Source of the DNA: a virus
Virus record (IMG/VR): IMGVR_UViG_3300042946_001661
Coordinates: 19,589-83,588 of that record
Reading direction: 5' to 3' (one strand)
Length of the DNA: 64,000 bases
Position 1 is the first letter of the stretch, and each line of letters starts with the position of its first letter. A program made the translations under genes and the position numbers. The notes beneath the pieces are model-generated. The model saw only the letters and a program-made list of their open reading frames with translations. It made no database searches and was not told the origin of the DNA. Of the stretch, positions 652-26,024 are shown one piece after another.

Positions 652-918
652 ATGAATTTTAAAAATTTTTTAAACTTACCAGAAATAGAAAAAGAAGGAG
701 TAATAAAAAAAATAGAAAGGAACAAAAATCCTATATCAATAAAGATTGATGACTCAACAGTTGAAGGAACAGAAGTATTTCTATCTCCTTCAGAGTACAG
801 AAGATATAAAAAAACAGGAAGATTAGAAATTGGATCAAAAGTTAAAATCTATTTACAAAAGCATCCATTAGATCAAGGAAAGGGACCCTTTCAGATATCA
901 AGGGTAAAATTTATATGA
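652..918 (+). CDS. Small conserved-looking phage protein, possible targeting peptide
   Basis: 88 residues. The N-terminus MNFKNFLNLPE resembles the short motif seen at the start of several other proteins in this window (M-x-F-K-x-F-L), which I compare with the T4 capsid-targeting peptide, although here the match is weak. The rest reads like a small beta-barrel: repeated short strands, Ser-Pro-Ser-Glu-Tyr, then GSKVKIYLQKHPLDQGKGPF. There is no Shine-Dalgarno sequence; AT-rich DNA abuts the start. The stop overlaps the ATG of the protease gene (ATGA), so the two are probably co-translated. Confidence 0.6.
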   Translation: MNFKNFLNLPEIEKEGVIKKIERNKNPISIKIDDSTVEGTEVFLSPSEYRRYKKTGRLEIGSKVKIYLQKHPLDQGKGPFQISRVKFI

Positions 919-1652
919 AAATATTTTTATTGATATTTATAGTATTACTTAATACTACAGCTACTTTTGGAGGAACAAGAGATCCAAACACCCCAGATTC
1001 TAAATATCTTGAGTATGGAAAAAAACATAAATGTGTAATTAAAATTACAACTATAACAAAAGAAGATAAAAAAGCATACGGCTCTGCTGTGGCGATAGAT
1101 CCATATTGGGTGCTAACAGCGGCACATCTTGTTAAAGATTCAATTAATGCAAAAATTATTTTAGACAACAAAGAAATAGCTATAGATGAAATATTTATTC
1201 CAGATGAATATGATGAAAAAAAAATAGGACTGTCTGATATAGCTTTATGCAAACTAAATGAAGGTTTAGATTTAAACTTTTATCCAGAATTATATGAAAA
1301 AGAAGATGAAGTTGGAAAAGTTTGCAGCATATCTGGATTTGGTGTTACCGGAACATTTTCTTCAAAAGAAAGAATTGATGATGGAATTAGAAGGGCAGGA
1401 TCTAATCAAATAGATAATATAGAAAAACACCTACTAATATGTACTCCAGGAATAAAAAATAAAACAGAATTAGAATTTTCAATATCTCATGGTGATAGCG
1501 GAGGAGGACTATTTATAGACAGAAAGCTTGCTGGTATAAATTCTTGTGTAATGGCTGCAGATAAAAACCCAAACTCTAGCTATGGTGATGAATGTGGACA
1601 CACAAGAGTCTCAATACACAGGAATTGGATTATAAATATAATTAAAAAATAA
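915..1652 (+). CDS. Secreted trypsin-like serine protease
   Basis: 245 residues. Residues 1-19 form a typical signal peptide (MKIFLLIFIVLLNTTATFG). The chymotrypsin-fold (S1) triad is visible: His in VLTAAHLV near residue 72, Asp in LSDIALCKL near 112, and Ser in HGDSGGGLF near 197. The protein should be exported to the periplasm or outside and cleave peptide bonds. It is not the prohead protease gp21, which has no export signal and a different fold. The upstream neighbour overlaps by 4 bases. Possible roles are cleaving host surface proteins, processing virion parts after release, or lysis support; the sequence does not decide. Confidence 0.85.
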   Translation: MKIFLLIFIVLLNTTATFGGTRDPNTPDSKYLEYGKKHKCVIKITTITKEDKKAYGSAVAIDPYWVLTAAHLVKDSINAKIILDNKEIAIDEIFIPDEYDEKKIGLSDIALCKLNEGLDLNFYPELYEKEDEVGKVCSISGFGVTGTFSSKERIDDGIRRAGSNQIDNIEKHLLICTPGIKNKTELEFSISHGDSGGGLFIDRKLAGINSCVMAADKNPNSSYGDECGHTRVSIHRNWIINIIKK

Positions 1653-2196: not shown

Positions 2197-2754
2197 TTAG
2201 TTTTTAGGACAAAGTTTACAAATTATTTGATTTGAGGTAATAAATGGTTTTTTCTCAATTAAAAAAATATCTTCTCCAAGTTTATCTATAAACTTGTTCA
2301 TCAACTCAAATCCTTTTTCTTTATTTGATAATTCTCTATTTGATTTAAATTTTAAAGTTATTTGTAGTTTTTTACCATTTTTTAAAAATTCTTTAGCATG
2401 ATTTATTTTTGTGTTTAAATCGTGTTCTTCTATGCATGATTTAAATCTTATTTCTTTTGATTCTAGTGCTTTTGAATTTTTTTTCTTATCTTTTTCTTTT
2501 ATTTTTTCTTGATATGAGTACTTTTGATAGTCTAGAATATGGCAGACAGGGGGTTTTGCATTAGGTACAATTTCAACTAAATCTAAGCTTTTTTCTTGAG
2601 CAACACGAACAGCAGAATCAAGGCTCATAACTCCAAGTTGCTGTCCCTCAAAAATTACCCTTATAGGGCTGATTTTAATAGCATAATTGATTCTATGCTT
2701 AGGAAGAGGTTTGTTGGAAGAAAACCCAAATTTATTTCTGTACTTGTAACTCAT
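2197..2754 (-). CDS. infC: Translation initiation factor IF-3
   Basis: 185 residues, close to bacterial IF-3, with both domains. The N-domain (about 20-90) contains INYAIKISPIRVIFEGQQLG, LDLVEIVPNAKPPVCHILDY, then the Lys-rich linker. The C-domain (about 103-185) contains KEIRFKSCIEEHDLNTKI and FLKNGKKLQITLKFKSNRE. IF-3 binds the 30S subunit, keeps it apart from 50S, and checks the start codon and initiator tRNA. A phage copy could redirect host ribosomes. There is a TATAAT box about 30 bases upstream of the ATG, and the start is preceded only by A/T bases, without a Shine-Dalgarno sequence. A tRNA and a bS21 gene lie within 3.5 kb on the same strand. Confidence 0.93.
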   Translation of the reverse strand: MSYKYRNKFGFSSNKPLPKHRINYAIKISPIRVIFEGQQLGVMSLDSAVRVAQEKSLDLVEIVPNAKPPVCHILDYQKYSYQEKIKEKDKKKNSKALESKEIRFKSCIEEHDLNTKINHAKEFLKNGKKLQITLKFKSNRELSNKEKGFELMNKFIDKLGEDIFLIEKKPFITSNQIICKLCPKN

Positions 2755-2799: not shown

Positions 2800-3435
2800 C
2801 TAGTAAGTTTCAAGGTTGTTATCCAAAATATTGATAAATATTCCTTCTTTCTCTTCAGGATATTTTCTACTAGAGATGATCTCATCATCTTCGTTTTTTT
2901 CTATAACTTTAAATTCAAGATAATACTCTCCTGGAACCCGTGTGTCATCCAAGAACCAATTGTAAACCAAATAGCTTTCTACTAAAACGTTTTGTTCGAC
3001 CGTTCCATTTAGCTTTATAACATCTTCACGAACTAAGTCGTAAGTCGCACTAGAGTTCATTATTTTTATAATTTTTATATTAGTTCCTTTTTTCCAACTA
3101 GCCGGCGTAGTGCTGAAATAACCTCTAGTTACCATAATGCTGTTGTTTATTATTGTGGAAACCTGCATTAATTCATGATTGGTGCTATTTTTAAACAGAA
3201 TAATATCATCTGGAACAACGGAGCTAAGACCTACGTTATCTGCTAGAAGTATTTCAAACTCACTATCGTCTATATCTTTTTTAAGCTTTGCGTCCGCCCA
3301 CATACTGGCTGTTATTTCTTTACCTGTTAAGTCTATTGGGCTCATATCACAATCATATATTTTAAGCCTAACAGAGGGTTGTGTGCTATTTCTTTTTATA
3401 ATGAAATCATATTCATATTTTTTGCAGTTTGCCAT
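2800..3435 (-). CDS. Probable virion protein, baseplate/tail-fibre type
   Basis: 211 residues, beta-rich. The N-terminal part (RNSTQPSVRLKIYDCD, then DLTGKEITASMWA) and the late GEYYLEFKV look like the immunoglobulin-like N-domain found in phage upper-baseplate proteins, where a linear-polarisation domain is followed by a YYLEF strand. That family link is by pattern only. A TATATATT box lies immediately upstream of the ATG with no Shine-Dalgarno sequence, as at other virion genes here. Confidence 0.55.
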   Translation of the reverse strand: MANCKKYEYDFIIKRNSTQPSVRLKIYDCDMSPIDLTGKEITASMWADAKLKKDIDDSEFEILLADNVGLSSVVPDDIILFKNSTNHELMQVSTIINNSIMVTRGYFSTTPASWKKGTNIKIIKIMNSSATYDLVREDVIKLNGTVEQNVLVESYLVYNWFLDDTRVPGEYYLEFKVIEKNEDDEIISSRKYPEEKEGIFINILDNNLETY

Positions 3436-3449
3436 AATAATATATATTA

Positions 3450-3794
3450 TTATCTATTAACATTTATTTTTCTAATATCTCCAGATATTTTAATCTTACC
3501 AGATTCTAGTTCGGCAAGCATTTCTAAATTTATATTTTTCTTATAAAGAGAATGTAGGAATATCAAATCTTTATATTTTTTTTCAAGTTGCTTGAGCCAC
3601 CTGTTTTGACAACACAAACCTGTGTGGTCTACAAAATTTTTATATTCACCAAAAAATATAAAATATCTTAAAAAACACCTTTGAATTTTTCCTTTAAAGT
3701 ATTTTAAAAGAAACTTTTTATCTTTAGGTATTTCTAAGAATAAAAATCTCATTCCTATAAACAAACAATCATGATCCAAAATAAATTCCCTCAC
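3450..3794 (-). CDS. Hypothetical protein
   Basis: About 114 residues if it begins at the GTG at 3794, overlapping the upstream gene by 26 bases; an ATG at 3752 would avoid the overlap and leave 100 residues. It is rich in aromatic and basic residues in the first half (KKFLLKYFKGKIQRCFLRYF) and has a CCQNRW segment. No recognised domain. Confidence 0.5.
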   Translation of the reverse strand: MREFILDHDCLFIGMRFLFLEIPKDKKFLLKYFKGKIQRCFLRYFIFFGEYKNFVDHTGLCCQNRWLKQLEKKYKDLIFLHSLYKKNINLEMLAELESGKIKISGDIRKINVNR

Positions 3795-4269
3795 AAAACT
3801 CTAAACACAAAATCATCATTCCGCCTGCAAACTGTTGTGGAACCCCAGCTTTGTATAAACTTTTTAATGTTTCATTAACCATTTTAATCTCTTTTGTTAC
3901 ATCTCCGTCTTTTTTTGCTTTATTTATATCTTCTTGAGTTATAACAATGCATTTTTCAAGAGCTTCATATGCTTTTTGAACACCTAATATTATATTAGTA
4001 TTTACAACTGTATAAATTTTATCTTTATTAAATAAACTAGATTTATCTATATTTGTATTAGGATGTGCAGATTTTTCTTCAAAAAATAATTTTATATAGT
4101 ATTCTGCCAGTCCCATAGCATCTTTTCTAAAATCATCAATAGATGATATTTCTATATTTTTTAGCAAATTAATTGCTATTAGTTCTTCTGGTTCGTCTTC
4201 TATTTCATCAAAATCATCAAAATCATCATAATAATCATCTTCGTATTTTTCCATAATTTGTTTTTTCAT
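3769..4269 (-). CDS. Hypothetical protein with acidic N-terminus
   Basis: 166 residues. Residues 8-30 are almost entirely Asp, Glu and Tyr (YEDDYYDDFDDFDEIEDEPE); the remainder is helical with a hydrophobic C-terminal segment (QQFAGGMMILCLEF) that may pack in a core rather than span a membrane. The start at 4269 has AAGGAGC at normal spacing. It is divergent from the candidate spanin gene at 4299. Function unknown. Confidence 0.65.
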   Translation of the reverse strand: MKKQIMEKYEDDYYDDFDDFDEIEDEPEELIAINLLKNIEISSIDDFRKDAMGLAEYYIKLFFEEKSAHPNTNIDKSSLFNKDKIYTVVNTNIILGVQKAYEALEKCIVITQEDINKAKKDGDVTKEIKMVNETLKSLYKAGVPQQFAGGMMILCLEFCEGIYFGS

Positions 4270-4979: not shown

Positions 4980-5213
4980 CTATCTCAGATAAAAGCCTTC
5001 ACAGTTATCTGCAGTTGGAAGACACAACCTATCCGGTTCTATTTTATTTTTTTCACAAAAATGAAAAAAATCTTTAACTTCTTGGTCTATTAATTGTTTT
5101 TTTAAAGTTTTTTTTAAACAATAATAATTATTATTGTTCTCGCCCAAATATCTGCATGTTTTTGAGTTGTGTCCAGCCAAACAAACTTCATCTATTTGTT
5201 TTTTTGTTAACAT
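4980..5213 (-). CDS. Small Cys-rich protein
   Basis: 77 residues with six Cys (VCLAGHNSKTCRYL, YYCLKK, HFCEKN, LCLPTADNCEGF). The spacing suggests a compact metal-binding or disulphide-bonded unit, but no named family fits. It lies 55 bases downstream of the bS21 gene on the same strand. Function unknown. Confidence 0.6.
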   Translation of the reverse strand: MLTKKQIDEVCLAGHNSKTCRYLGENNNNYYCLKKTLKKQLIDQEVKDFFHFCEKNKIEPDRLCLPTADNCEGFYLR

Positions 5214-5268: not shown

Positions 5269-5499
5269 TCAAAAATTTTCAGGTTTTGAATTTTTCTTTC
5301 TTATTAAATTCATCTCTTTTTTCTTTCTTCTTCTTTTTTCTCCAGGACTTTCATAAAATTCTCTTTTTTTAACTTCCTGAAGAACTCCGCTATCTGATAT
5401 TACTTTCTTAAAAATATTCAAACCTCTTTTGAACAAATCTTCCTTTTCTCTTTGAGAAAGATTGTGATGACCATCTTCTTTTAATATTCTAATTTTCAT
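5269..5499 (-). CDS. rpsU: Ribosomal protein bS21 homolog
   Basis: 76 residues. Residues about 28-62 match the bS21 core: FKKVISDSGVLQEVKKREFY followed by ESPGEKRRRKKKE, against the bacterial pattern FKR-x(4)-GVL-x-E-x-RRREFYEKP-x(3)-R-x-(K/R)-rich. bS21 sits on the 30S platform near the anti-Shine-Dalgarno end of 16S rRNA and affects mRNA recruitment. Phage-encoded bS21 is known in large and marine phages and is thought to replace the host copy on ribosomes. The start has AGAAGGAG at good spacing. It follows the GT-B-like pair by 27 bases on the same strand. Confidence 0.88.
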   Translation of the reverse strand: MKIRILKEDGHHNLSQREKEDLFKRGLNIFKKVISDSGVLQEVKKREFYESPGEKRRRKKKEMNLIRKKNSKPENF

Positions 5500-5526: not shown

Positions 5527-6669
5527 TCATTCTTTTGGAATTTTTATAAATCTTGTTCCAAATTTTTTATTTTTGATTTTTCTAACATCTTCTATAATTA
5601 CTTTTTTATTAAACTCAGATGTTGTGTTCCAAGTATCTCTGTCTAAGTACGGTAAAAAATTCATTAAATTATTTTTAATATTAACAAAAATGTCATTTTT
5701 CCAAGAACTCAAATTTCCATTAACTATACTGTTTGTGAAGTAGAATTGAATTTTATTCGGTGTTTCTATTGCTGTGTAGTTGTATAATTCATTTTCCTTT
5801 GTATTAAAGTATCTTGTTCTCTCATCAAAAATCAAAGATGGTGTTCTTGATAATTTTGATAGCCAAGATAAATCATTAAACAAGTCTAGGGTGCATCCCG
5901 TTAGTCTTATAGAAGATAAAACTTTAGATATATCATATTCATTTACAAATATACAATCTGTTTTATTTGTAAATTCATTTGTTAAATCAAACCCTGTTGG
6001 GTGATTCCATATAACAGGAAAAATATTTTCACTCTTCAAATATTTTATTAATTCTATATAAAAATCCTTATTAGATCTAACTTTTATATTTCTTCCATCC
6101 GCCCAAGAGTTCAAATAAATAGAAGGATGAAGAAAAACCTTATACCCAGAATTTTCATTTATTGACCTGAGGGTGTCTTTTCCTAAGATTGCAGAACTTG
6201 GAATCATAGGAAAGTTTAATATAATATCTTCGTATTCTTTCCAAAATTTTTCTTTAAAACCATTTTTATAATACAAATTAAAAGTGCTCGAATTAATTAC
6301 GTTTCTATAATTTTCATTGAAGCTTCTTAATAATTCTAAATATGTTTTTGATTTATTTTCAAATTCATTTGAATTTTCATAAATATTTTTAAAAAATTTG
6401 AAATCAGATAAACTCCAATACTCGTCTGCCTCTTTAAACAAGTGTGAGAATCCTGGGTAGGAACAGACTATAATATATTTTGAATTTTTTGTTTTATTTT
6501 TATAGTGATCAAATAGTATTGATGAAAAAATAAAAGAATGTTTAAAATCACAAAATATAGGTATAAAAAGAAGATTGTCTAAGTCTGTTGGAACTTTTGA
6601 ATCAAAAAAAACTTCTCTTTTAAAGCCTATTCTTTCTGAGGAAACATTCAAGAAATTAATAGTGTTCAT
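5527..6669 (-). CDS. Putative GT-B glycosyltransferase-like protein 1
   Basis: 380 residues. The overall pattern resembles GT9/heptosyltransferase-like GT-B proteins: an early beta-alpha region with KYIIVCSYPGFSHLFKEADEYW, a central YKVFLHPSIYLNSWADGRNI strand-loop, then IFPVIWNHP and a C-terminal SWLSKLSRTPSLIFDERTRY segment. It aligns by eye with the next gene (ADEYWSL against VDEFWEL), so the two are tandem paralogs. No catalytic residue can be assigned with confidence; a sugar transfer role is inferred. Confidence 0.5.
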   Translation of the reverse strand: MNTINFLNVSSERIGFKREVFFDSKVPTDLDNLLFIPIFCDFKHSFIFSSILFDHYKNKTKNSKYIIVCSYPGFSHLFKEADEYWSLSDFKFFKNIYENSNEFENKSKTYLELLRSFNENYRNVINSSTFNLYYKNGFKEKFWKEYEDIILNFPMIPSSAILGKDTLRSINENSGYKVFLHPSIYLNSWADGRNIKVRSNKDFYIELIKYLKSENIFPVIWNHPTGFDLTNEFTNKTDCIFVNEYDISKVLSSIRLTGCTLDLFNDLSWLSKLSRTPSLIFDERTRYFNTKENELYNYTAIETPNKIQFYFTNSIVNGNLSSWKNDIFVNIKNNLMNFLPYLDRDTWNTTSEFNKKVIIEDVRKIKNKKFGTRFIKIPKE

Positions 6670-6672
6670 AAA

Positions 6673-7791
6673 TCACCAGTTCAACAATCCCTTTTTATCT
6701 AAAGCGTGTTTTACCATATTTTTATCTTCAGTTAAATCTAAAACATAGTCCCAATTATCTTTTTTTATTTCATGTATAGACTTTTCTATAGATAACAAGC
6801 CTTTTTCTGTATCATTTAAAAATGATACATAATTAGATATTATTATCTTTTTTTTGTTAAAATCAGAACTAGCTGCTATTCTACTTCCTTCTTGTCCTCT
6901 AAGAGCCAACTGATCTGCGGATTCTACGAGTATAAAAGGAGTTTTTACAATTGAACTCAATCTTGTCGATGCTGTCCAGAGTTGAATGCTAAACTCTACA
7001 CAACTTAATACAGCCAATGTAAATTCTAAATTTTTTACCATAGCAGTGTTAGAAAAATCAATACAATTTTCCATTTTTAAACTTGATACATTTTCTCCAA
7101 GATAAACAGGAGTAAAATCATTAGAAACCAAAATTTTATTTAATTTATAATAAAAATCTTTAGGTAAATTTCTACCATATGTTTTTCTGTTTCTTGCAAA
7201 AACAGCAACTGCTTTATTTGGAACTATTTTTTTAATTTCATTTAAATAATCTTCTTTTGGTTTTGGAATACTTCTTGAAAATTTTTTATTTTGTATATCT
7301 CCTAATAAAGGAGGGGAGATATTTTTATTACCACATCTTGGACATAAATCAAAAAAAGCATAGCTCGAATGAAAACATTTTTTACAAACATATGTGATTA
7401 AAAAATTGCCAAGATATTGACTTTTAAAAAGTATGCCTATTTTTTTTAGTTCTTTCTCTAATAAATCTATGTTTTTAGACCTAGTCCAAAAAGCATTACA
7501 AGAATCTTTTAACCAATAATCATCTTCTTTTAATTCCCAAAACTCATCAACTAAATGTCTATAAAAATATTCCCTTCCAGTCCATCCAACTAATATTATA
7601 TAATATCCATTAAAAATATTTAATAATTGTGGTATAGAATAATTACAAGCTAAAGTTTCTACTCCCAATTCACAAAAATTAGTAATAATTAAAATCTTAT
7701 CTAGTTTTTTCTTTTTTGTAAATTTATAGACATTAAAACAAAAATTATCTATTTTTTTTTCTTTGATATGCTTGTTTTTAATAAAAAGCAT
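6673..7791 (-). CDS. Putative GT-B glycosyltransferase-like protein 2 with zinc ribbon
   Basis: 372 residues. Similar layout to its downstream paralog (GWTGREYFYRHLVDEFWEL), with an inserted four-Cys zinc ribbon at about 135-157 (VCKKCFHSSYAFFDLCPRCG). The second half, KAVAVFARNRKTYGRNLPKDF, then FTPVYLGENVSSLKMENCID and VKTPFILVESADQLALRGQE, is typical of a GT9-like nucleotide-sugar-binding domain, where a strand is followed by Gly/Glu. It lies 3 bases before its paralog. The phage also encodes HldE, so a heptose-type donor is a reasonable but untested guess. Confidence 0.5.
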   Translation of the reverse strand: MLFIKNKHIKEKKIDNFCFNVYKFTKKKKLDKILIITNFCELGVETLACNYSIPQLLNIFNGYYIILVGWTGREYFYRHLVDEFWELKEDDYWLKDSCNAFWTRSKNIDLLEKELKKIGILFKSQYLGNFLITYVCKKCFHSSYAFFDLCPRCGNKNISPPLLGDIQNKKFSRSIPKPKEDYLNEIKKIVPNKAVAVFARNRKTYGRNLPKDFYYKLNKILVSNDFTPVYLGENVSSLKMENCIDFSNTAMVKNLEFTLAVLSCVEFSIQLWTASTRLSSIVKTPFILVESADQLALRGQEGSRIAASSDFNKKKIIISNYVSFLNDTEKGLLSIEKSIHEIKKDNWDYVLDLTEDKNMVKHALDKKGLLNW

Positions 7792-7797: not shown

Positions 7798-8325
7798 TCA
7801 TTTAGGTTCCGGTGTGAATCTTAGTGCACCTATCTGATCGCTAATTTTGTCAATCATAGATGCTACTTTTCCCATCTCTTTTTTAATAGAGTCTAATTCT
7901 TTTTCTTTAACACCCATCGCATGTTTAGATAAAAATTGAACCTCTAAGTCGTATAGTTTTTTCTTCAATTCATTAAGTTTATCTAAACTTTCACCTTCAG
8001 TCCAATCGTCTGTTGGTTTATTTTTTGCATCTCTACCCAAATTTGAATAATCTACTGGGTTGCTACTTTTTGCTACCTTAGATGTTTTATTTTCATTTAA
8101 TAGTTGAGCTTCTGAATAATTTGCAATATCATTCCAATAAGAGACACCATCTTGTTCTGGATCTAATTCTGAATCTTTGATATTAATCTGTCCGAAGAAA
8201 TTAGATTTTCCGTCCTCTATTTCTTTGGGTTTTAGGTCAGACTTTGGAAATAAACCATCTTTTAATGCTTTATCCCATTGTTGTGTCCACTTATCGAACT
8301 GATCTTCCATGTTATTGTTGCTCAT
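7798..8325 (-). CDS. Probable virion-associated protein, unknown
   Basis: 175 residues, hydrophilic, with a Trp-rich N-terminus (FDKWTQQWDKALKDGLFP) and a C-terminal coiled-coil-like segment (DKLNELKKKLYDLEVQFL ... IDKISDQIGAL). The ATG is preceded by GTATATATAATTATT with no Shine-Dalgarno sequence, the arrangement seen before virion-type genes here. Function not recognised. Confidence 0.55.
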   Translation of the reverse strand: MSNNNMEDQFDKWTQQWDKALKDGLFPKSDLKPKEIEDGKSNFFGQINIKDSELDPEQDGVSYWNDIANYSEAQLLNENKTSKVAKSSNPVDYSNLGRDAKNKPTDDWTEGESLDKLNELKKKLYDLEVQFLSKHAMGVKEKELDSIKKEMGKVASMIDKISDQIGALRFTPEPK

Positions 8326-8330: not shown

Positions 8331-8340
8331 TTATATATAC
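8331..8340 (-). promoter_or_regulatory. TATATATA late-type box
   Basis: On the minus strand this reads GTATATATAA and ends a few bases before the ATG at 8325. No ribosome site fits between box and start, so the mRNA leader would be very short if this is a -10 element. Confidence 0.4.
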
Positions 8341-8354: not shown

Positions 8355-8792
8355 TTAGCAACCTAAAACTATTCTTAATGTTAAGCTAATCGCTTGTAAA
8401 CTTGAAATTAATACAGGATTTGGGAATTTATAATACCATATTACAGAATCAGAATTATTAACAATATAATATCCATATATTGTACTTTCTACAATATCGC
8501 TGCATCCCCAGACCAGAACTTCATCGTAATAAGAAACAACATCCCCTGATTCTACTGTTGCTGCACTCCAGTTATTCTTATCCAGTTCTTTAGAGGAATA
8601 TCCATCAAAAGTACATTCGGTAAACGACAAATTGTTTTCATTCAAGTTGTTCTTAAACAACTTTATCACATAATCATTACAAGAAAGTAGGCTGTCTAAA
8701 TAGTCCGGCTTTGAACTTGGAACAGGCTGTGCGACTCCTAATATTGGCGTTGGCGTTGGAGTTGGAGTTGGAGTTGGGGTTGGAGTTGACAT
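8355..8792 (-). CDS. Probable virion protein with Thr-Pro repeat N-terminus
   Basis: 145 residues. Residues 3-16 are seven Thr-Pro repeats, encoded by a GGAGTT/GGCGTT DNA repeat, followed by a Pro/Ser linker and a roughly 100-residue beta-rich domain (VESGDVVSYYDEVLVWGC, STIYGYYIVNNSDSVIWYY). A flexible (TP)n stalk plus a small beta domain is common in phage decoration or fibre-like proteins. An exact TATAAATA box lies 6 bases upstream of the ATG. The exact virion role is unknown. Confidence 0.55.
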   Translation of the reverse strand: MSTPTPTPTPTPTPTPILGVAQPVPSSKPDYLDSLLSCNDYVIKLFKNNLNENNLSFTECTFDGYSSKELDKNNWSAATVESGDVVSYYDEVLVWGCSDIVESTIYGYYIVNNSDSVIWYYKFPNPVLISSLQAISLTLRIVLGC

Positions 8793-8798: not shown

Positions 8799-8806
8799 TA
8801 TTTATA
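8799..8806 (-). promoter_or_regulatory. TATAAATA box, T4-late-promoter type
   Basis: The minus strand reads TATAAATA, identical to the T4 late promoter consensus recognised by gp55-type sigma. It is followed by AACTAT and then the ATG of the Thr-Pro repeat protein. Confidence 0.55.
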
Positions 8807-9254
8807 CATTTTCAATAATTTTAGATTTTATTAAAATGTTTTTTTCTTTATCTACAAGATCTTCAGAGTTATATGTTTTTAGAGTTGACCAATGAGGGTC
8901 ATCTTTTGGAATATATTCTTTTTTAGTATAATAAAAAAATTCTGCTATGTATTCGTATTCTTTATTTTCAACTTCATCAACACTCATACCTGAAAGGCGA
9001 TCATGCAAAATTTCTTTTAATACTTTTACCGAATCAATCCATCTGGCTTTTGCCATCTTTTGAATAATAGCAAGAGCTGAATACGCATTGTTTTCTAATG
9101 CATTTATTACATCTTTTTTAAGATCTCCTGGTCCGAATTTTGCTTTTGTTGTATAACATGCAATTACTTCATCTTTGCTAGGTTTATATTTTAAAGAAAC
9201 ATCTTTGAAGTATTCTGAAAAATTACTTTCATCAATTATCAACTCTTTGCTCAT
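8802..9254 (-). CDS. Hypothetical protein downstream of dnaE C-part
   Basis: 150 residues, no membrane or Cys features; the middle is helical (NALENNAYSALAIIQKMAKA). It overlaps the 3' end of the polymerase C-terminal gene by 23 bases and has an AAAAGG ribosome site, so it is probably coupled to it. No known family recognised; a role with the polymerase is only a positional guess. Confidence 0.6.
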   Translation of the reverse strand: MSKELIIDESNFSEYFKDVSLKYKPSKDEVIACYTTKAKFGPGDLKKDVINALENNAYSALAIIQKMAKARWIDSVKVLKEILHDRLSGMSVDEVENKEYEYIAEFFYYTKKEYIPKDDPHWSTLKTYNSEDLVDKEKNILIKSKIIENV

Positions 9255-10929
9255 CTTTTTCCTTTTTTCTAAGAACTACTATTCTGTAGTCGTCTTCTTT
9301 ATTAACAGTACTTTTTTTGAAAAAATTTCTTGGTCCAGTGCTAGCTATTGTGTATGTCTTGAAGCCTTTGCTTGGGGCACTTAATCTTACTCTAAGCAAA
9401 CTTCCAGGAACTAATTCATTTTGAAAATTAGCATAATCATCTTTCCATACATTTATAAGACCTTCATCACAATTACAATCTTCTGCTTTTACCTGATAGT
9501 ATTCTGCCTTTTTACCTTTCTTTTTACTACAAGATATTACCTCTATTTCCACAGGAAGAGTATCTCCAGAATCAGGCTCTAGTGTGTCGAAGGTTAATCC
9601 TCCCCTATAATCCGGACTGTCCTTTACATTACTGTGCCAAGCAAATCCATAATACTTCTTTTCACAGGCTACTAAATCATCAAATTCTTTTTTCAAGTTT
9701 TTATCAATTTTAGAATCATCAATAACAAAACCTTCTAGTCTAGGTTTCTCCAAATCTTCTTTATCTTCATATCTTTTTTTGGCAGTCTGTATCTTGTTAA
9801 TCATTTTACATATGTTTTTCCAAGCATCTTTGTTATTAATAATAAGTTTTAAATATCTCTTTTTCCAATCATCACATGATTTACTGCCAATTTTCAAAGA
9901 ATCTAAATCAATATAGTCTATCTCCCCACTAACTACTTTATTTTTAATAAAATCAGTATTCTCTGCCTCCTTGATCATTGAATAAAGAATCTCTTTATTT
10001 TTTTTTGCTGTATTTGCATACCTTTTTTTTCTATCTTGATTTTTCTTTATATAATCTTTATATTTTTCAGAGAACATAAAAAGAGTGTAAGGATCCGAAT
10101 CGGAGAAGCACCTAAGAGAAAGTAATGGCTTTAATACACTAGAATCTGTTCCGAATCTTTCAACAAAATCTTCAAAGTTTTTATATGGCTGTCTCTTTAC
10201 TATTTCTTTTGCTATAGGCTCTCCTATTCCTTTTATATTAGAAAAACCAAAATAAATATCATCTCCTATAAGGCTGAAGTTTTCTTTAGACAAATTAATA
10301 TCAACAGGCTTTAAATCTATTTTATGCTTAGTTATTTCTTTTCTATATTCTTTAATTTTATCGGCATCATTTTCACATGTTAAAATTGCAGTATAAAACT
10401 CATGAGGAAAATGAGACTTTAAATATAAAAGTCTTGAACTAATATGAGTATAACATACTGCATGACTTTTATTGAAGCCATATTCTGCAAAACTTTCAAT
10501 AAGTTTCCATAAATTTTCTAATTCTTCTTCAGAAGAATCCAAGTTCTTTTTTCCATTATTAATAAATGTTTCTTTGTATTTAATAAACTGTTCTACTTTT
10601 TTCTTACTAATAGCCTTTCTTACAGCTTCAACATCTCTCATTGGAATATTTCCAACCATGTTCAATATTTTCATTACTTGTTCTTGGTATACAATTACCC
10701 CATAAGTATCTTTTAATATTTCGTTTAAAATAGGATGTAATTTATATTCTTCTCTGCCTCTTTTTCTTTCTATGAATCTTTCATGCATTTTACAGTTATG
10801 AACAACAATATCTTGAGCAATAAAATTAGGCTCATCGATATAAAGATCATCTTCAATGATTAAAGAAATATCATAACATTCATCTTCGTCAACTTTTTCT
10901 ATAGAAATTATTTCATCATAATCAATCAT
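9232..10929 (-). CDS. dnaE: DnaE polymerase C-terminal part with split-intein C-half
   Basis: 565 residues. Residues 1-45 are a C-intein ending DIVVHN, followed by Cys46 as the +1 nucleophile. The next 520 residues are the C-part of a family-C DNA polymerase: FIERKRGREEYKLHP, GVIVYQEQVMKI, AVRKAISKKK, FAEYGFNKSHAVCYTH, LKSHFPHEFYTA, a helix-hairpin-helix (FSNIKGIGEPIAKEIVKR) and a C-terminal OB-like region (VEIEVISCSKKKGKKAEYYQ). It must be joined to the product of 11974-13287 by trans-splicing to give RPGPLN-CKMHERF, matching the uninterrupted DnaE pattern RPGP(L/M)-x(3)-M-x(3)-F/Y-I-x-RK. It overlaps the endonuclease gene by 8 bases. Confidence 0.92.
   Translation of the reverse strand: MIDYDEIISIEKVDEDECYDISLIIEDDLYIDEPNFIAQDIVVHNCKMHERFIERKRGREEYKLHPILNEILKDTYGVIVYQEQVMKILNMVGNIPMRDVEAVRKAISKKKVEQFIKYKETFINNGKKNLDSSEEELENLWKLIESFAEYGFNKSHAVCYTHISSRLLYLKSHFPHEFYTAILTCENDADKIKEYRKEITKHKIDLKPVDINLSKENFSLIGDDIYFGFSNIKGIGEPIAKEIVKRQPYKNFEDFVERFGTDSSVLKPLLSLRCFSDSDPYTLFMFSEKYKDYIKKNQDRKKRYANTAKKNKEILYSMIKEAENTDFIKNKVVSGEIDYIDLDSLKIGSKSCDDWKKRYLKLIINNKDAWKNICKMINKIQTAKKRYEDKEDLEKPRLEGFVIDDSKIDKNLKKEFDDLVACEKKYYGFAWHSNVKDSPDYRGGLTFDTLEPDSGDTLPVEIEVISCSKKKGKKAEYYQVKAEDCNCDEGLINVWKDDYANFQNELVPGSLLRVRLSAPSKGFKTYTIASTGPRNFFKKSTVNKEDDYRIVVLRKKEKDEQRVDN
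10795..10929 (-). other. Split intein, C-terminal half
   Basis: 45 residues encoded. Visible features are the block-F-like ECYDISLIIEDDLYI segment and the terminal block G IVVHN, with the catalytic His-Asn pair, immediately followed by Cys. This is enough for asparagine cyclisation and ligation if paired with its N-half. The length of the C-half is in the normal range for split inteins with a natural break near the endonuclease position. Confidence 0.9.
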
Positions 10930-11935
10930 TTTTTATACTTTCAAAAAAATTAATAACCCTTTTGTCGTTGCGAAACTTTTTTCTACTCATGTTACAATCA
11001 TTGAACTGCCAGTAATGAAAAAGAAAATTATTTTCTATCGCATAACTTTCACCAGCCTTTAATTTTGCTTCAGATTTTTCGGCATCAATTTGATAAACAT
11101 ATCCTGATTTTAACTCTACTAAAAATTTTTCATTAATTAAAAAATCCGGAAAATATTTTTTATTTTTGCCGCAATAATTATAAGCAATACAACAAGGTGT
11201 TGCAAACCAAGATTTAACATATGGGGAATCATCTAGTAGTTCGGAGAGCCATAATTCAAGTCTCGATCTAAGAAAAAAATCACAATTCATTTTTTTTGAA
11301 TAGAATGACTTGCCTGTGCTACTAAATACATAGTCAGGATGAACTTTTCGATAATTATTATTACAGTCTTTAGAGCAAAATTTAATTTTAGGTCTTGGCT
11401 TTCCTCCAACCCATATAATAATTTGTTTATCACAAAATGCACAATTACTATATTTGGCTTTGCCTTTAGCCAAAGGGTATAATCTCTGGTAGTCTTCGGG
11501 TGTCCGCTTTTCTCTCAATTGTTTAAGCTTTTCATTCCCGGCAGATGTGAAAGCAAATAATAATTTTTTTCTTTCTTCGGGAGAAACAGATTTAACCTTA
11601 CTAACCCAAGCGTCTGACGCCATTTTAACAACTTTTTTTCTAGTCTCTGGTTTGAGGATATCTCCTTTTTCATATGCTTTTTTCATACGCTCAGATCTAT
11701 TTTTTTTAACATGTGCTTGATTGCTATAATCTTTGACTTTTTTAGCAATTGAAAATACAGTCTCATTAGATTCTTTGGTTTCACCTTTATTCCAAACATC
11801 GGGTATTTGATTTTTATATTCTTCTGTTTGCTCGGGAAACATTTGCAAATACTTCGTTTTTTTAATTTTATGAGACGAGTTTAAATGTCTGTAAAATTTG
11901 TCTGAAATTTCTCTATTGCATAATTTACATATCAT
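10922..11935 (-). CDS. Vsr-like/PD-(D/E)XK homing endonuclease inside the fractured dnaE
   Basis: 337 residues. An N-terminal C2H2-like finger (ICKLCNREISDKFYRHLNSSH) and a basic DNA-binding middle are followed by a Cys4 cluster (CAFCDKQ, FCSKDCNNN). The C-terminal nuclease domain has SRLELWLSELLDD, then YFPDFLI and FLVELKSGY, the D...E-x-K signature of a Vsr-like fold, followed by KAGESYAIENNFLFHYWQ. Free-standing endonucleases of this type are known between the halves of split-intein genes (fractured genes, Dassa and co-workers). The gene sits 38 bases after the N-intein stop and overlaps the C-intein start by 8 bases. It probably spreads the insertion by cutting uninterrupted dnaE. Confidence 0.82.
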   Translation of the reverse strand: MICKLCNREISDKFYRHLNSSHKIKKTKYLQMFPEQTEEYKNQIPDVWNKGETKESNETVFSIAKKVKDYSNQAHVKKNRSERMKKAYEKGDILKPETRKKVVKMASDAWVSKVKSVSPEERKKLLFAFTSAGNEKLKQLREKRTPEDYQRLYPLAKGKAKYSNCAFCDKQIIIWVGGKPRPKIKFCSKDCNNNYRKVHPDYVFSSTGKSFYSKKMNCDFFLRSRLELWLSELLDDSPYVKSWFATPCCIAYNYCGKNKKYFPDFLINEKFLVELKSGYVYQIDAEKSEAKLKAGESYAIENNFLFHYWQFNDCNMSRKKFRNDKRVINFFESIKND

Positions 11936-11973
11936 TGTAGCCTCCAGGACTATTCAATAATATGTAGGAGATT

Positions 11974-13287
11974 TTATTTTAATTTTTTAGCAATTTTTTG
12001 CCCAACAGATAATTTTTCGGCTTCAATAAATTCATCTTTATCGGTAAGGATTTTATGTTCATTTGAACACAAAATTACTTTTCCAGATTTAGTTTTAATT
12101 TTTAATAATTTTTTATAACCAGTTTTTATTAAAATAAATTTTTCAGTATATTTAATTTTCTTTTTTTTACTTAAATAGGCAATTTTATCTAACCCAGGCT
12201 TCAAATCTTTTATTTTTTTATATCCAAGATTTGTATTAACTTTTACATCTTTTTGAAGACAATTCAAAGGACCTGGACGATATAATGATGAGTAGGCAAC
12301 AAGATCTTCAAATCTTGTAACACCACCAGCTTTAGCTAATGATCTAATACCTGGGCTATCAAACTGAAAGATACATTTAAGGTCTCCTTCATTAGCCATT
12401 TCTAGGGATTTTAAATCATTCCTATACTCATCTATGTTGCTCCAATTGCCTTGACCAGGAAATGCACATATTTTATCAATACCTTTTCTATCTTTTATAA
12501 GCTTACAACACTTTGCAATCTGAAGAAGATTACTGATCACAAGCAAATCAAATTTAACAAGTCCTACTGGCTGTAGATCTTGTCCATGAAGACCTTCTAC
12601 CCAAGCACTTGCCTGAGGGCTATCTTTTCTTTTTATAAGAGGAACAAGATCGGTTAAAGGAATAGAGCTTACAATCAAACCTCCAGCATGTATACCTGTC
12701 CCTCTGTTTCTATTAATTAGTTTTTGAGCAGCCTTTGCTATATCTGGGTGTTCTTCGCAGTATTTCTTAAGCATAGGATCAGTTTTCATAGCTGAATCCC
12801 ATGTGAGAACTTTTCCTTCATCATCTTTTGTTTGAAGATTTGTTGTTAAAGCGAGTATTTCTCCTCTTTCTTCTCCGTGAACTCTAACCATATCGATAAG
12901 AGAGGATTTAATACCAAAAGTAGTATAGTTTCCTATATTACAGACATATTGCTCTCCAAATGTTTTAGGAGCCCATTCATTCTTTAAAAAATCACGAACA
13001 GCAGGAATAAAATCCACATCGATATCCGGAGAATCACCTTGTACATAATTTGGATCTTTTTCTATATCAAAATTTGGTACTATTTCTAGTAGCCAACACA
13101 CCAAAAGATTATTTTCATTATCTGGATAATTTACATTTCTGGTCACCATATCTAGAAAGTAATTTTCCTTATTTTGAGAAATTATCTCTTGTTTTTCCCA
13201 TTCTAATCTTTTTTGATATCTTTTATCTTCATACAATCCTTTTTCTTTTAATTTTTCTTCACAAATTTTAAATATGTTTGATTTCAT
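11974..13287 (-). CDS. dnaE: DnaE polymerase central (catalytic) part with split-intein N-half
   Basis: 437 residues. Residues 1-342 are the N-extein with the polymerase active site: GDSPDIDVDF (first two catalytic Asp) near 85-94, and VGLVKFDLLVISNL (third Asp) near 248. Other family motifs are GIHAGGLIVS, CIFQFDSPGI and VAYSSLYRPGPLN. Residues 343-437 are the N-intein starting CLQKDVKV. The first 80 residues contain a second copy of a segment (RYQKRLEWEKQEI ... NYFLDMVTRN) that also appears near the end of the PHP-part gene, and lack the GPGRGSAGGSL motif, which is only in that other gene. No Shine-Dalgarno sequence; TATATAATATAG lies upstream. Confidence 0.92.
   Translation of the reverse strand: MKSNIFKICEEKLKEKGLYEDKRYQKRLEWEKQEIISQNKENYFLDMVTRNVNYPDNENNLLVCWLLEIVPNFDIEKDPNYVQGDSPDIDVDFIPAVRDFLKNEWAPKTFGEQYVCNIGNYTTFGIKSSLIDMVRVHGEERGEILALTTNLQTKDDEGKVLTWDSAMKTDPMLKKYCEEHPDIAKAAQKLINRNRGTGIHAGGLIVSSIPLTDLVPLIKRKDSPQASAWVEGLHGQDLQPVGLVKFDLLVISNLLQIAKCCKLIKDRKGIDKICAFPGQGNWSNIDEYRNDLKSLEMANEGDLKCIFQFDSPGIRSLAKAGGVTRFEDLVAYSSLYRPGPLNCLQKDVKVNTNLGYKKIKDLKPGLDKIAYLSKKKKIKYTEKFILIKTGYKKLLKIKTKSGKVILCSNEHKILTDKDEFIEAEKLSVGQKIAKKLK
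11977..12261 (-). other. Split intein, N-terminal half
   Basis: 95 residues. It begins at Cys1 (block A, CLQKDVKVNTNLGYKKIKDL) directly after RPGPLN, and has a block B SNEHKILTDKDEFIEA with the conserved His in the N/T-x-x-H position. It ends IAKKLK at the stop. Block A and B spacing is normal, so thioester formation should work. The insertion point in the conserved RPGP loop of DnaE differs from the cyanobacterial split DnaE intein site. Confidence 0.9.
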
Positions 13288-13346: not shown

Positions 13347-14441
13347 ATGAAAAAATCAATGAAAAAAGCAATTCTTATTTACAAAGAAGGAAAATCAATA
13401 GAAAAGTCCGCAGCTGAAGCGGAAGTATCTTTTCAAGGACTTCAATATCAACTTAAAAAACTTGGTTTAACAAGAAGTGCCGAAGAAGCCGCTCACAAGA
13501 GCTATACATCAGAGAGTTTAAAAGAAGCATTGAGTCTTTACGAAAATGGAAAAAGTTTAAATGAAGTTAATAAAATAACAAAGGTTTCTCTACACACATT
13601 GAGAAAAGAAATAAAAAGATTAAAAATATCAAAAAAGAAAATTATTAAATATGATCATATATTAGAAAAATCAATAGATTTATACTTATCAGGATTATCC
13701 ACCATAAAGGTAAAAAATATAACTGGTATAGGGCTTGGCAAGTTAACAAAAAATCTTAAAAAAAGAGGGCTTATTCGTAGTAATAAAATAAATTCAAGAA
13801 AATATCATGTAAATTATGATTTTTTTAAAAATATAGATAATGAACACAAAGCGTATTGGCTTGGTTTTATTTATGCTGACGGTTACATTAGCCGAATAAA
13901 TAAAAATAAAAAAATTGGAATATCATTAAACATAAAAGATATGGATCATCTAGAGGTTTTTAAAAAACAAATTAATGCTACATATCCAATAAATATTTAT
14001 AAGTCGAAGTCTTTTGGAGGAGTAGAAATAGAATATTGCAGACTACTTATTACTTCAGATCAATTGTTTGATGATTTAATTGACAAAGGAGTTTTCGAAA
14101 AAAAGACATTAATATTAAAATTTCCAAATGAATCTATAGTTCCAAAAAACTTACAACATCATTTTATAAGAGGATATTTTGATGGTGATGGATCTTTCAA
14201 AAAAAGTAATGGTAAATATTATGTTTTTAATCTATGTGGTACAAAAGAATTTCTACTAAAATGTCAAGAAATACTTCATAAAAATACAAAACTAGAAAAA
14301 AGGCACAAGGATAATAAAAACAACTATAGTTTTTCGATAGGAGGCAGATTACAAGCCAAAAAAATAGGTGATTACTTATACAAGAATGCTACTGTATACT
14401 TAGAAAGAAAATATAACAGATATAAAGAAATGTGTTTTTAA
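13347..14441 (+). CDS. LAGLIDADG homing endonuclease
   Basis: 364 residues. Residues 1-150 hold three repeats of a short helix-turn-helix-like module (for example AAEAEVSFQGLQYQLKKLGL, VNKITKVSLHTLRKEIKRL, VKNITGIGLGKLTKNLKKRG), probably for DNA binding. Two LAGLIDADG motifs follow: YWLGFIYADGYI and HFIRGYFDGDGSF, each with the acidic catalytic residue. The SD is AAGGAC. It is divergent from the dnaE central part (59 bases) and lies in the gap that separates that gene from the PHP part, so it may have caused or exploited that break. The gene is intact. Confidence 0.88.
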   Translation: MKKSMKKAILIYKEGKSIEKSAAEAEVSFQGLQYQLKKLGLTRSAEEAAHKSYTSESLKEALSLYENGKSLNEVNKITKVSLHTLRKEIKRLKISKKKIIKYDHILEKSIDLYLSGLSTIKVKNITGIGLGKLTKNLKKRGLIRSNKINSRKYHVNYDFFKNIDNEHKAYWLGFIYADGYISRINKNKKIGISLNIKDMDHLEVFKKQINATYPINIYKSKSFGGVEIEYCRLLITSDQLFDDLIDKGVFEKKTLILKFPNESIVPKNLQHHFIRGYFDGDGSFKKSNGKYYVFNLCGTKEFLLKCQEILHKNTKLEKRHKDNKNNYSFSIGGRLQAKKIGDYLYKNATVYLERKYNRYKEMCF

Positions 14442-14465
14442 TTAAATAAAATTTTAGTACAGATG

Positions 14466-14473
14466 TATAAATA
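14466..14473 (+). promoter_or_regulatory. TATAAATA box, T4-late-promoter type
   Basis: Exact TATAAATA followed by TAATCAAAGGAG and the ATG of the PspC-domain gene at 14490. Here the leader is long enough to carry a Shine-Dalgarno sequence. Confidence 0.55.
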
Positions 14474-14489
14474 TAATCAAAGGAGTAAA

Positions 14490-14663
14490 ATGAAAGTAGA
14501 CAAGAAAAACGCCATGATTGGCGGAGTCTGTGCTGGTTTGTCGGATTCAACTGGGATACCGACTGCGGTTTTTAGGCTTGCTTTTCTATTTGCATTTTTA
14601 CTTGCTGGGATGGGTCCTATAATTTATATCATTTTATGGATCATGATGCAAACAAAAGAATAA
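14490..14663 (+). CDS. PspC-domain small membrane protein
   Basis: 57 residues from the ATG at 14490, which follows AAAGGAG. The sequence reads KKNAMIGGVCAGLSDSTGIP then AVFRLAFLFAFLLAGMGPII and IYIILWIMM, the compact pattern of the PspC domain (GGVCAGLA-x-D-x-x-G-x-x-x-x-x-V-R). In bacteria PspC is an inner-membrane part of the phage-shock envelope-stress response. A phage copy could block or mimic that response, or protect the membrane before lysis; this is inference. It precedes the acidic repeat gene by 10 bases. Confidence 0.8.
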   Translation: MKVDKKNAMIGGVCAGLSDSTGIPTAVFRLAFLFAFLLAGMGPIIYIILWIMMQTKE

Positions 14664-14673
14664 TGGAGAAAAA

Positions 14674-15621
14674 ATGCCTTTCAAAAAATTTAATGAATTC
14701 TTAAACGAACAAAAGAAAAATAAGAAGACTAAAAAAAGTGATAAAAAGGCATTAGGAATTAGTGGCGATAAGTCTCTTGTTTATAAACCAAAAGTTCATA
14801 AATATGATAAAATTAAAGACAAGGGACTCGGAAATATTGGAGATGAAAAAAACATCTACGAACCAGACACAGGTCCAGAGCTACAGAAAAAAGCTCCAGA
14901 ATGGCATAAAACAAACATTAAAGAATGGTTAAACAAAACAAAAAAATTATCTGTTTCTGAATTTGCAAAAAAAATTCAAGAAGAAAAAAGTGTAAAAGTA
15001 AATATTAATAAAATAAAAAATGCTGAAGATCTTATTGGCAATTTTGTAGAAACATTAAAAAGCAATCCAAAATTAATAGAGGTTGCATCAAGAGAGTTTA
15101 ACAGATCCGGATTACTTGAAGGTTTTATTGTAGAGCTCAGTAAAATAAAAAGATCAAAAAGAATACACGAATCAATTAGTGAGCCTGTTGGGTTTGAAGA
15201 CGAAGAAGGCATGGAAGGCATGGAAGATGAAGAAGGCATGGAAGGCATGGAAGATGAAGAAGGCATGGAAGATGAAGAAGGCATGGAAGATGAAGAAGGC
15301 ATGGAAGACGAAGAAGGCATGGAAGACGAAGAAGGCATGGAAGACGAAGAAGGCATGGAAGACGAAGAAGGCATGGAAGACGAAGAAGGCATGGAAGACG
15401 AAGAAGAAGGTTATAGACGCCATCGTCATCGTCACCATCATCATGACGAAGAAGATGATGAGTTTGGGGACGAAGAAATGGAAGATGAAGATGATAGCGA
15501 AAATTTAGATAGCGATGATCTTGAGGATCATGGTTATAATAAAAACCAAGATATGGAAGATGATTCGCCCCTAGGGAGAAGATCTGGCATGCGTAGGGAT
15601 TATTTTTCAGACGAAATTTAA
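14674..15621 (+). CDS. Acidic repeat protein with capsid-targeting-like N-terminus
   Basis: 315 residues. N-terminus MPFKKFNEFLNEQKK resembles the T4 internal-protein targeting peptide (MKTYQEFIAE), with a possible cleavage after Glu. Residues 1-170 are basic and helical. Residues about 175-246 hold about ten DEEGME repeats; then HRHRHHHHDEEDDE and a further Asp/Glu-rich tail. The SD is GGAG. A basic head plus very acidic tail with a targeting peptide suggests a prohead-core or internal capsid protein, comparable to T4 gp67, but this is by composition only. Confidence 0.65.
   Translation: MPFKKFNEFLNEQKKNKKTKKSDKKALGISGDKSLVYKPKVHKYDKIKDKGLGNIGDEKNIYEPDTGPELQKKAPEWHKTNIKEWLNKTKKLSVSEFAKKIQEEKSVKVNINKIKNAEDLIGNFVETLKSNPKLIEVASREFNRSGLLEGFIVELSKIKRSKRIHESISEPVGFEDEEGMEGMEDEEGMEGMEDEEGMEDEEGMEDEEGMEDEEGMEDEEGMEDEEGMEDEEGMEDEEGMEDEEEGYRRHRHRHHHHDEEDDEFGDEEMEDEDDSENLDSDDLEDHGYNKNQDMEDDSPLGRRSGMRRDYFSDEI
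15199..15411 (+). repeat. 18-bp tandem coding repeat (DEEGME)
   Basis: About ten units of GAYGAAGAAGGCATGGAA in frame; the first two carry an extra GGCATGGAA. Units 2-5 use GAT for Asp, and unit 1 and units 6-10 use GAC, so the array appears to have expanded in blocks. It creates long artificial open frames on both strands. Confidence 0.9.
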
Positions 15622-15655
15622 AAAATAAACAATTAACAATTAACAATTATAATTT

Positions 15656-15835
15656 ATGAAAAGTTTTAAACAATTCAAAGAAGAAAAAGAAAAAGAAGAA
15701 CTAAAAAATAATGATAGGGTAGCAAAAGCTATAAAAATGGGAAATGCCGCGGGCAGTCTTCCACTTAGCTCTCATAAAGAACGAAACGAACGAAGAAAAG
15801 ACAACATCCCGTCGAAGTACTACAAAGGAAAGTGA
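15656..15835 (+). CDS. Small basic internal-protein candidate
   Basis: 59 residues, missed by a 60-residue cut-off. It begins MKSFKQFKEEKEKEELKNN, close to the capsid-targeting-like motif of other genes here, and ends with a Lys/Arg-rich tail (HKERNERRKDNIPSKYYKGK). Three AACAATT repeats and TATAATTT lie directly upstream of the ATG and no Shine-Dalgarno sequence is present. It lies between the acidic repeat gene and the convergent PHP gene. Probably a small packaged protein. Confidence 0.6.
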   Translation: MKSFKQFKEEKEKEELKNNDRVAKAIKMGNAAGSLPLSSHKERNERRKDNIPSKYYKGK

Positions 15836-15849
15836 AATAATTTACTAAA

Positions 15850-17223
15850 TTAATCCTTAAATTCTAAAATCATACTTCTCCCACCTCTAGATTCTGAAAG
15901 AAATCTAGAGAATAGTAAGTCTTCTTTTATAGGATCAACATCCGTTATTCCTAGACAGTAGCATACGAGAGAACCTCCAGCACTCCCTCGACCCGGTCCT
16001 ACTGCATCGCTTCCATCGCCCCATCCTAATATTTCAGGACAAACTCGTCGGGCTTCATCTGTCATCATTTTTTGAATAAGAAAATAACTACTAAATCCTT
16101 TTCTCTTGATTAATGATATCTCTTCTTTTATTCTTGAAGAATATACTTTTGTTTTTGGTAAATTTCTTTTATTAAAACCTTGTACGACCAAATCTCTTAA
16201 TTTGTCATCAGAATTTTCAATATTAGGCAGCTTTAAACTTCTATCGAAGGTCACACCTTTTGCCATTTCGCATATTTTAACTGTATTCTTTTTAGCTTCT
16301 TGAAACAATTCATATGGAATAATATCTTTGTAATCACTTAACCATTTTTCATTAAGCTCTTCTTCACTCTTCATCCAAAGATTAGCATCTTGAAGCTCAA
16401 AAAAATCAACCATTGCATCTTTTTGTTTTGCTTCTTCTATCTCCTTTAAAGTTCTATTTGTTTGAATCATCAACATTAATCTTTGATAATGACTATCTTC
16501 TTTTTTGCAATAATGAACATCACAACTTACGATCAAAGGTAATTTATATCTTTCATGACACTTGATTATAAAAGCGTCATAAGCAAACTGTTTTTTAAAG
16601 TCTAGTAGCATTAATTCTAAATAATAATGCTCTCTACCAAACATTTCCAAATGCTTTTCAAGCATTTGGAATCCAGCTTCTTCTCCACCCTTGTCAAAAG
16701 CTCTACCTATCTCGCTATTATAGCAACAGCTTGTAAAAATAAGACCTTCTCTATGCTTTTTTAATTGTTCGTAATTGACTCTAGGCTTTCTATAGAAGCC
16801 TTTAGTCCAACCCCAACTAGTTAAACGTACTAAATTTTTATAGCCCTCTAAATTGTACGCTATAGCCAGCAAGTGAGGACTAGCTTTAAAAACATCCATC
16901 TCATCTGGAGATAATTCTTTTGTAAAATCTTGAAGATCCTCAAGACCAGAACTTTCTGGTTGTAATGAATTTATATATAATTCTGAAGCAAATATTGGGG
17001 ATAATTTATTTTTATCTTTATGTTTATCACATATCTTATCGCATATTTTAATTTGTCTGGGTACAGCTCCTAACATTCCGTGATCTGAAACTGTTAAGAA
17101 TTTTTGATTAATTTCAACGGCGCGATTACCTGCTTCCTCAACGGTTTGAAAACCATCAAGCAAAGAATAGTCTGTATGGAGGTGAAGATGTTCAAATCCA
17201 ACAATTTCTACCTTATCTTTCAT
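15850..17223 (-). CDS. dnaE: DnaE polymerase N-terminal part: PHP domain and start of palm
   Basis: 457 residues from the ATG at 17223, which overlaps the stop of the gene before it (ATGA); an ATG at 17238 is also in frame. The PHP domain starts FEHLHLHTDYSLLDGFQTVE with metal-binding His residues, then TVSDHGMLGA and ASELYI. The protein runs to the palm motif AVGPGRGSAGGSLVCYCLGI and ends shortly after LLFSRFLSESRGGR with the tail SMILEFKD, just where the catalytic PDIDVDF should follow. That motif is in the gene at 11974-13287. No intein is seen at this break, so the parts would have to associate without splicing. Confidence 0.9.
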   Translation of the reverse strand: MKDKVEIVGFEHLHLHTDYSLLDGFQTVEEAGNRAVEINQKFLTVSDHGMLGAVPRQIKICDKICDKHKDKNKLSPIFASELYINSLQPESSGLEDLQDFTKELSPDEMDVFKASPHLLAIAYNLEGYKNLVRLTSWGWTKGFYRKPRVNYEQLKKHREGLIFTSCCYNSEIGRAFDKGGEEAGFQMLEKHLEMFGREHYYLELMLLDFKKQFAYDAFIIKCHERYKLPLIVSCDVHYCKKEDSHYQRLMLMIQTNRTLKEIEEAKQKDAMVDFFELQDANLWMKSEEELNEKWLSDYKDIIPYELFQEAKKNTVKICEMAKGVTFDRSLKLPNIENSDDKLRDLVVQGFNKRNLPKTKVYSSRIKEEISLIKRKGFSSYFLIQKMMTDEARRVCPEILGWGDGSDAVGPGRGSAGGSLVCYCLGITDVDPIKEDLLFSRFLSESRGGRSMILEFKD

Positions 17224-17405
17224 GCAACAACTTTCCATTCTTTACCAGTAAAAATGTATAACACGTTAAGATTATTGTTAAAATAAAGATCCCCAACTTT
17301 TAAATTTTTTGGAGGTAATCCTACATACACCCCACTATACTGTTTTTTCGAAGTTTTATTTATAAAAGATTCAAATAATTTATTTTTTTCTTTTTTTATA
17401 GCCAT
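17220..17405 (-). CDS. Small phage protein, unknown
   Basis: 61 residues from the ATG at 17405; a longer frame exists but without a better start. The C-terminal part KVGDLYFNNNLNVLYIFTGK followed by EWKVVA is a beta-hairpin pattern found in small virion-associated repeats (G-D-L-x-x-N-x-x-x-x-x-L-Y-x-x-x-G-x-x-W). The stop overlaps the start of the PHP gene. Function unknown. Confidence 0.6.
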   Translation of the reverse strand: MAIKKEKNKLFESFINKTSKKQYSGVYVGLPPKNLKVGDLYFNNNLNVLYIFTGKEWKVVA

Positions 17406-26022: not shown

Positions 26023-26024
26023 AA

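Follow-up and report, generated by a model that had tools for sequence, protein, structure and literature searches.

Phage-encoded translation initiation factor IF3 with an altered codon-contacting loop in a clade of huge-phage relatives with predicted leaderless late promoters

Introduction

Initiation factor IF3 keeps the ribosomal subunits apart and proofreads start codons. It is reported to discriminate against leaderless mRNAs: raised IF3 inhibits these messages, and they are favoured in infC mutants whose codon selection is relaxed (PMC9031893). In 30S complexes of T. thermophilus, the C-domain of IF3 touches the start codon via Arg91, Arg123, Gly124, Arg125, and Arg159 (PMC5037330). Ribosomal protein bS21 is located next to the anti-Shine–Dalgarno (anti-SD) region, and 70S ribosomes containing phage bS21 have been observed (PMC9723584). 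The late promoter of phage T4 consists of TATAAATA at positions −13 to −6 relative to the site where transcription begins (PMC1524935).

Phage-borne IF3 itself is known, having been reported in huge phages (Al-Shayeb 2020; PMC7162821) and in jumbo phages (Iyer 2021; PMC7824862), in agreement with the first-pass annotation of the DNA analyzed here. The rarity that the same annotation ascribed to the phage gene is overstated, since a single pattern scan of IMG/VR returned 28 loci (with a pattern from a smaller alignment, the six-phage IF3 alignment being too divergent) and several GenBank phages carry IF3. Some 'phage' IF3s in databases are host DNA, such as that of Vibrio p16 with thrS-infC-L35-L20. 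The deposited 'phage' IF-3 at positions 25817–26317 of MK672802 belongs to a thrS-infC-L35-L20 operon of the host, so that counts of phage IF3 call for caution. Full-length phage-borne IF3 is likewise present in the jumbo phages Atu_ph07, Phosso, Vibrio 2.275.O, and XaC1, where it lies beside or near topoisomerase II genes (in 2.275.O also adjoining bS21) and has a normal glycine in the codon-contacting loop. Here, we describe an IF3 from a different phage lineage; what is added is a clade with a conserved gene order, a remodelled IF3 loop, and predicted leaderless late promoters. Neither such a loop in a phage clade nor such promoters were found in the open-access literature.

Results

Identity and structure of the phage IF3

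The window, by which we mean the whole analyzed stretch of 64,000 nucleotides, covers bases 19,589–83,588 of an 83,588-base virus record that is itself a fragment. The only IF3 copy of the record is an intact infC-like gene at window positions 2197–2754 on the minus strand, encoding 185 residues. E. coli infC starts with AUU. Such a start, with the autoregulation that goes with it in E. coli, was considered and rejected for the phage gene, which begins with ATG directly after an in-frame TAA and has no Shine–Dalgarno (SD) sequence. The product has the same two domains and linker as bacterial IF3 (E. coli InfC, T. thermophilus 5lmn, and G. stearothermophilus 5me0), with an N-terminal domain of residues 22–89 (2488–2691, minus strand; Pfam IF3_N, 5.5e-25) and a C-terminal domain of residues 98–184 (2203–2463, minus strand; IF3_C, 5.2e-21). 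It scores 153.4 bits against the NCBIfam infC equivalog TIGR00168 (cut-off, 60), matches PHROG_9787 'translation initiation factor' (2.6e-42), and keeps 32 of the 35 near-invariant columns, defined as at least 90% conserved among 76 bacterial IF3s (bacteria, 30–35; shuffle mean, about 2). An AF2 model built from 22 viral sequences has a mean pLDDT of 89.8, with high confidence in both domains, and single-domain TM-scores (target-normalised) of 0.89 to both 1tif and 1tig; its strong structural matches are IF3 structures only, and the nearest solved relatives of the protein are all IF3. Altogether, these data confirm a true full-length IF3 with both domains and the linker, as first annotated, and exclude a chance resemblance; the protein is probably functional. 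The segment PNAKPPVC in the N-terminal domain, singled out in the first-pass annotation, is indeed present, but its weight as a distinctive mark was overstated: it is an ordinary IF3 motif and no sign of a special phage form, because Geobacillus IF3 (5me0) has exactly the same residues.

Alteration of the codon-contacting loop

The bacterial R-G-R loop of the C-terminal domain is replaced in the window IF3 by Lys137-Ser138-Asn139-Arg140 (2335–2346, minus strand), with one extra residue. The residues equivalent by alignment to the T. thermophilus contacts (PMC5037330) are Lys105, Lys137, Ser138 (plus the extra Asn139), Arg140, and Asn175, so that only the last Arg of the R-G-R loop, a usual IF3 feature outside the formal TIGR00168 family definition, is kept. 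The loop glycine (Gly124 in T. thermophilus) is Gly in 77/77 bacteria and in all 11 other phage IF3s, but in nine of the ten members of the window clade it is either substituted or has an extra residue after it. It is replaced by Ser, Arg, or Lys in the window, in the uncultured phage LR756511 (locus L005; loop KRR, as against KSNR in the window), and in contigs L019, L020, L023, and L024; an extra residue follows this position in L018, L126, and L128, the window having both the substitution and the insert, and only L022 retains the plain form. A one-residue insert with the Gly kept also occurs in L096 and L099, which are bacterial and represent one lineage. Two positions that are basic or conserved in IF3 are altered as well, R66 (His72 in the window) and the hairpin Arg (R168 in E. 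coli; Asn175 in the window); the position of T. thermophilus Arg159, likewise Asn175 in the window, varies among bacteria too. The alignment thus shows that the loop predicted to touch the start codon has been remodelled in the window clade.

Gene neighbourhood and relatives

The record carries a tail sheath, a tail tube, and a sheath stabilizer, i.e. a contractile tail, together with genes for replication and repair (T4-like UvsX, Dda, a DnaB-type helicase, SSB, and SbcCD) and nucleotide metabolism (class I RNR, ThyX, and dUTPase). The window has one tRNA gene, tRNA-Asn, adjoined by a gene for a trypsin-like serine protease with an N-terminal signal-like segment (915–1652, plus strand). Sugar-nucleotide genes for an HldE-like heptose kinase/adenylyltransferase and a dTDP-rhamnose epimerase, located at 22008–23366 (minus strand) of the window and at 11451–11960 (minus strand) of locus L003, suggest a Gram-negative host surface as the target. 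Another IMG/VR contig matches the record at 100% identity across 15.7 kb, a stretch that contains the IF3 gene; this contig may not be an independent sample.

The IF3 gene closes a minus-strand run composed of the pieces of PolIII alpha (DnaE), two unclassified genes (5527–7791), the gene for a 76-residue bS21 (5269–5499; PF01165, 5.9e-12), small genes, and a tail-protein-like gene (2800–3435; phrog_6284, 4.6e-6). The last, which stands beside IF3 across the clade, lies directly upstream at a distance of 45 nt, and the two genes may form an operon. The DnaE region at 9232–13287 (minus strand) looks like a gene interrupted by a split intein: the part at 11974–13287 ends in an intein N-terminal region after ...LYRPGPLN/C, and that at 9232–10929 begins with an intein C-terminal portion ending ...VVHN/C, with a gene of weak TnsA-like nuclease match (10922–11935) between them. 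A second break (13347–17238) separates the N-terminal DnaE part (15850–17238) by plus-strand genes including one for a LAGLIDADG protein (13347–14441). The DnaE stretch compared in LR756511 has no such intein insert.

LR756511 is 595 kb in length, and we take it to belong to the huge-phage study of Al-Shayeb et al. 2020. Its IF3 is 41% identical to that of the window, and the two genomes are collinear at 29–51% identity over DnaE, 6673–7791, 5527–6669, 4980–5213, 3769–4269, 3450–3794, 2800–3435, and IF3. They differ in that LR756511 has a peptide deformylase in the place of bS21, and a three-domain TPP enzyme of the acetolactate-synthase type between the tail-like gene and IF3 (L005, 18325–19974; also in L126, 12471–14018), which the window lacks there. 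LR756511 also has a tmRNA gene (tag ANPEFAMAA; L005, 4901–5253) about 15 kb from IF3. Among the IMG/VR contigs L018–L024, which carry IF3 and the tail-like gene, L019 and L023 also have bS21, homologues of which were found in L126, L128, and L129 as well. The gene order is collinear with the window in L019, L023, L024, L126, and L128, and the whole block is common to L126/L127 and L128 (up to 381 kb), contigs found through bS21. The conserved order of the clade is DnaE, two unclassified genes, bS21 (or peptide deformylase), the tail-like gene, and IF3. The gene therefore belongs to a true phage genome with huge-phage relatives.

In the IF3 phylogeny, an analysis proposed in the first-pass annotation and run here, the eight IF3s of the window group form a phage-only clade with 94/89 support, recovered in 98% of bootstrap trees. 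This clade is separate from the bacterial IF3s and from those of two or more further phage lineages, of which one is close to Bacteroidota. The IF3s of Atu_ph07 and Phosso do not group with it in this tree or in an additional one, nor do those of 2.275.O and XaC1 in the additional tree. Two Planctomycete-labelled MAGs near the phage clade in a quick tree (L096 and L099) were checked as possible phage contigs, and at least L099 is cellular, because its IF3 follows thrS. No close bacterial donor of the window IF3 was found among 80 bacterial loci gathered by pattern, and its acquisition by the phage lineage accordingly looks old.

T4-late-type elements and predicted leaderless starts

An SD scan of the phage genes revealed many starts without an SD, some with ATATATA just before the ATG. 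In the window record, TA[AT]ATA starts at −14 to −10 in 17 of the 111 genes (expected, 1.2; p about 1e-14), only one of which has an SD, while SD sites are present at 40/111 genes overall. The same holds for LR756511 (19/325 genes; expected, 0.96; p, 8e-19; SD in three) and L018–L024 (8/123; expected, 0.41; p, 1e-8; SD in none). In controls run with the same ORF caller, the numbers of elements at −14 to −10 were 0 (T4), 0 (KVP40), 0 (NCTB), 1 (P-SSM2), and 0/114 (Atu_ph07, Phosso, 2.275.O, and XaC1), and TA[AT]ATA was instead enriched at −40 to −20. AT-rich phages of the Bacteroidota type show a weaker enrichment, to be read with care. The spacing is not universal in the group, as no such element was found at 57 genes in the sampled stretches of L126, L128, and L129 (about 16 kb each for L126 and L128).

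At individual genes, the T4-late-type element TATATATT (3439–3446, minus strand) lies 3 nt before the ATG of the tail-like gene 2800–3435, TATATATA (8332–8339, minus strand) precedes the gene 7798–8325, and the exact T4 late consensus TATAAATA (8799–8806, minus strand; PMC1524935) lies 14 nt before the ATG of the gene 8355–8792. What is enriched is TATATATT/TA[AT]ATA at a constant distance from the ATG, with the TATATATT variant dominating; exact TATAAATA is not enriched across the whole record (28 versus 26 expected). T4 late promoters likewise have the core TA[AT]ATA upstream of genes, but there TATAAATA mostly starts 22–36 nt before the ATG, whereas the core in the window lies 10–14 nt before it, leaving no leader. 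With the T4 late spacing of −13 to −6, a core starting at −11 would put the transcription start on the A of the ATG. Some of the genes of this phage are thus predicted to be transcribed as leaderless mRNAs. The element preceding the tail-like gene is kept before its orthologues in LR756511 and L020, and is predicted to mark the leaderless start of a unit that may include IF3.

The gene 7798–8325 is informative as to the nature of the element, which stands directly before the ATG in the window and L019; in L126/L128/L129, TATATA is found some 32 nt upstream of the orthologue, and GGAGG (an SD) lies in between. This comparison points to a promoter whose leader was lost in the window's lineage, and makes it less likely that the motif is a translation signal. 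An artefact arising from TAA stops inside the motif was rejected, because TATATA contains no stop codon, the motif is out of frame at most positions, and the peak is absent from the controls.

Discussion

From family membership and residue conservation, we infer that the phage IF3 would most likely take the place of the host factor on the host 30S subunit late in infection, keep 30S and 50S apart, and take over start-site checking. Vertical descent would have maintained it in a lineage of huge T4-like phages with contractile tails. The changed codon-facing loop, together with the neighbouring bS21, may allow the phage to re-tune initiation, and the most likely purpose would be the passage of leaderless messages, because part of the phage genes appear leaderless; a relaxed loop could spare these mRNAs while competing with those of the host. 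The first-pass suggestion that a phage IF3 could change which mRNAs a host ribosome accepts thus gains some strength from the altered loop and from the promoter arrangement that predicts leaderless mRNAs. We put this reading, in which an IF3 directed at the ribosome takes over from that of the host late in infection and is possibly tuned for leaderless phage mRNAs, slightly above an even chance. Against such tuning, the link between IF3 and the leaderless-type spacing is loose: the former occurs without the latter in Atu_ph07, Phosso, 2.275.O, and XaC1, and L126/L128 have the loop insert without the spacing in the stretches sampled. A complete IF3 could just as well suppress the translation of leaderless mRNAs. 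A stronger form, in which T4-type late promoters have moved onto the start codon and the remodelled IF3 and bS21 make the host ribosome accept leaderless mRNAs as a switch of initiation mode, appears rather improbable.

The main rival is a plain extra dose, namely a phage IF3 equal to that of the host that raises its level for initiation or ribosome recycling late in infection, with neutral drift of the loop and unrelated promoters. The core columns, kept as in bacteria, and the occurrence of IF3 in phages with normally led genes agree with this possibility, but a change or insert at the loop Gly throughout most of the clade exceeds the drift expected while the rest of the core is kept; we regard the extra dose as doubtful, though a serious contender. 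A dominant IF3 variant might otherwise serve host shut-off by sequestering 30S or blocking 70S formation on host leaders: 30S binding is plausible given the intact linker and both domains, and His72 and Asn175 replace the usual R66 and R168, but the phage needs the ribosome too and has SD sites at many of its own genes, which makes an anti-host factor quite unlikely. Finally, host origin of the gene through mis-assembly or mis-binning of the contig, for which the host operons among database 'phage' IF3s set a precedent, is extremely improbable here, as thrS, rpmI, and rplT are absent beside the window IF3, tail and replication genes lie on the same record, and the IF3 falls in a phage-only clade; the synteny with LR756511 and further virus contigs led us to reject host contamination.

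Since 2020 it has been proposed that phage-borne translation factors redirect the ribosome, but a concrete molecular handle was lacking. Two such handles are provided here, a defined loop that can be exchanged and a group of genes, predicted to be leaderless, that can be assayed. If the proposed role of the phage IF3 is true, this would be a virus that changes the initiation mode of the bacterial ribosome, and its IF3 would be a natural variant with which to examine the rejection of leaderless mRNA by this factor.
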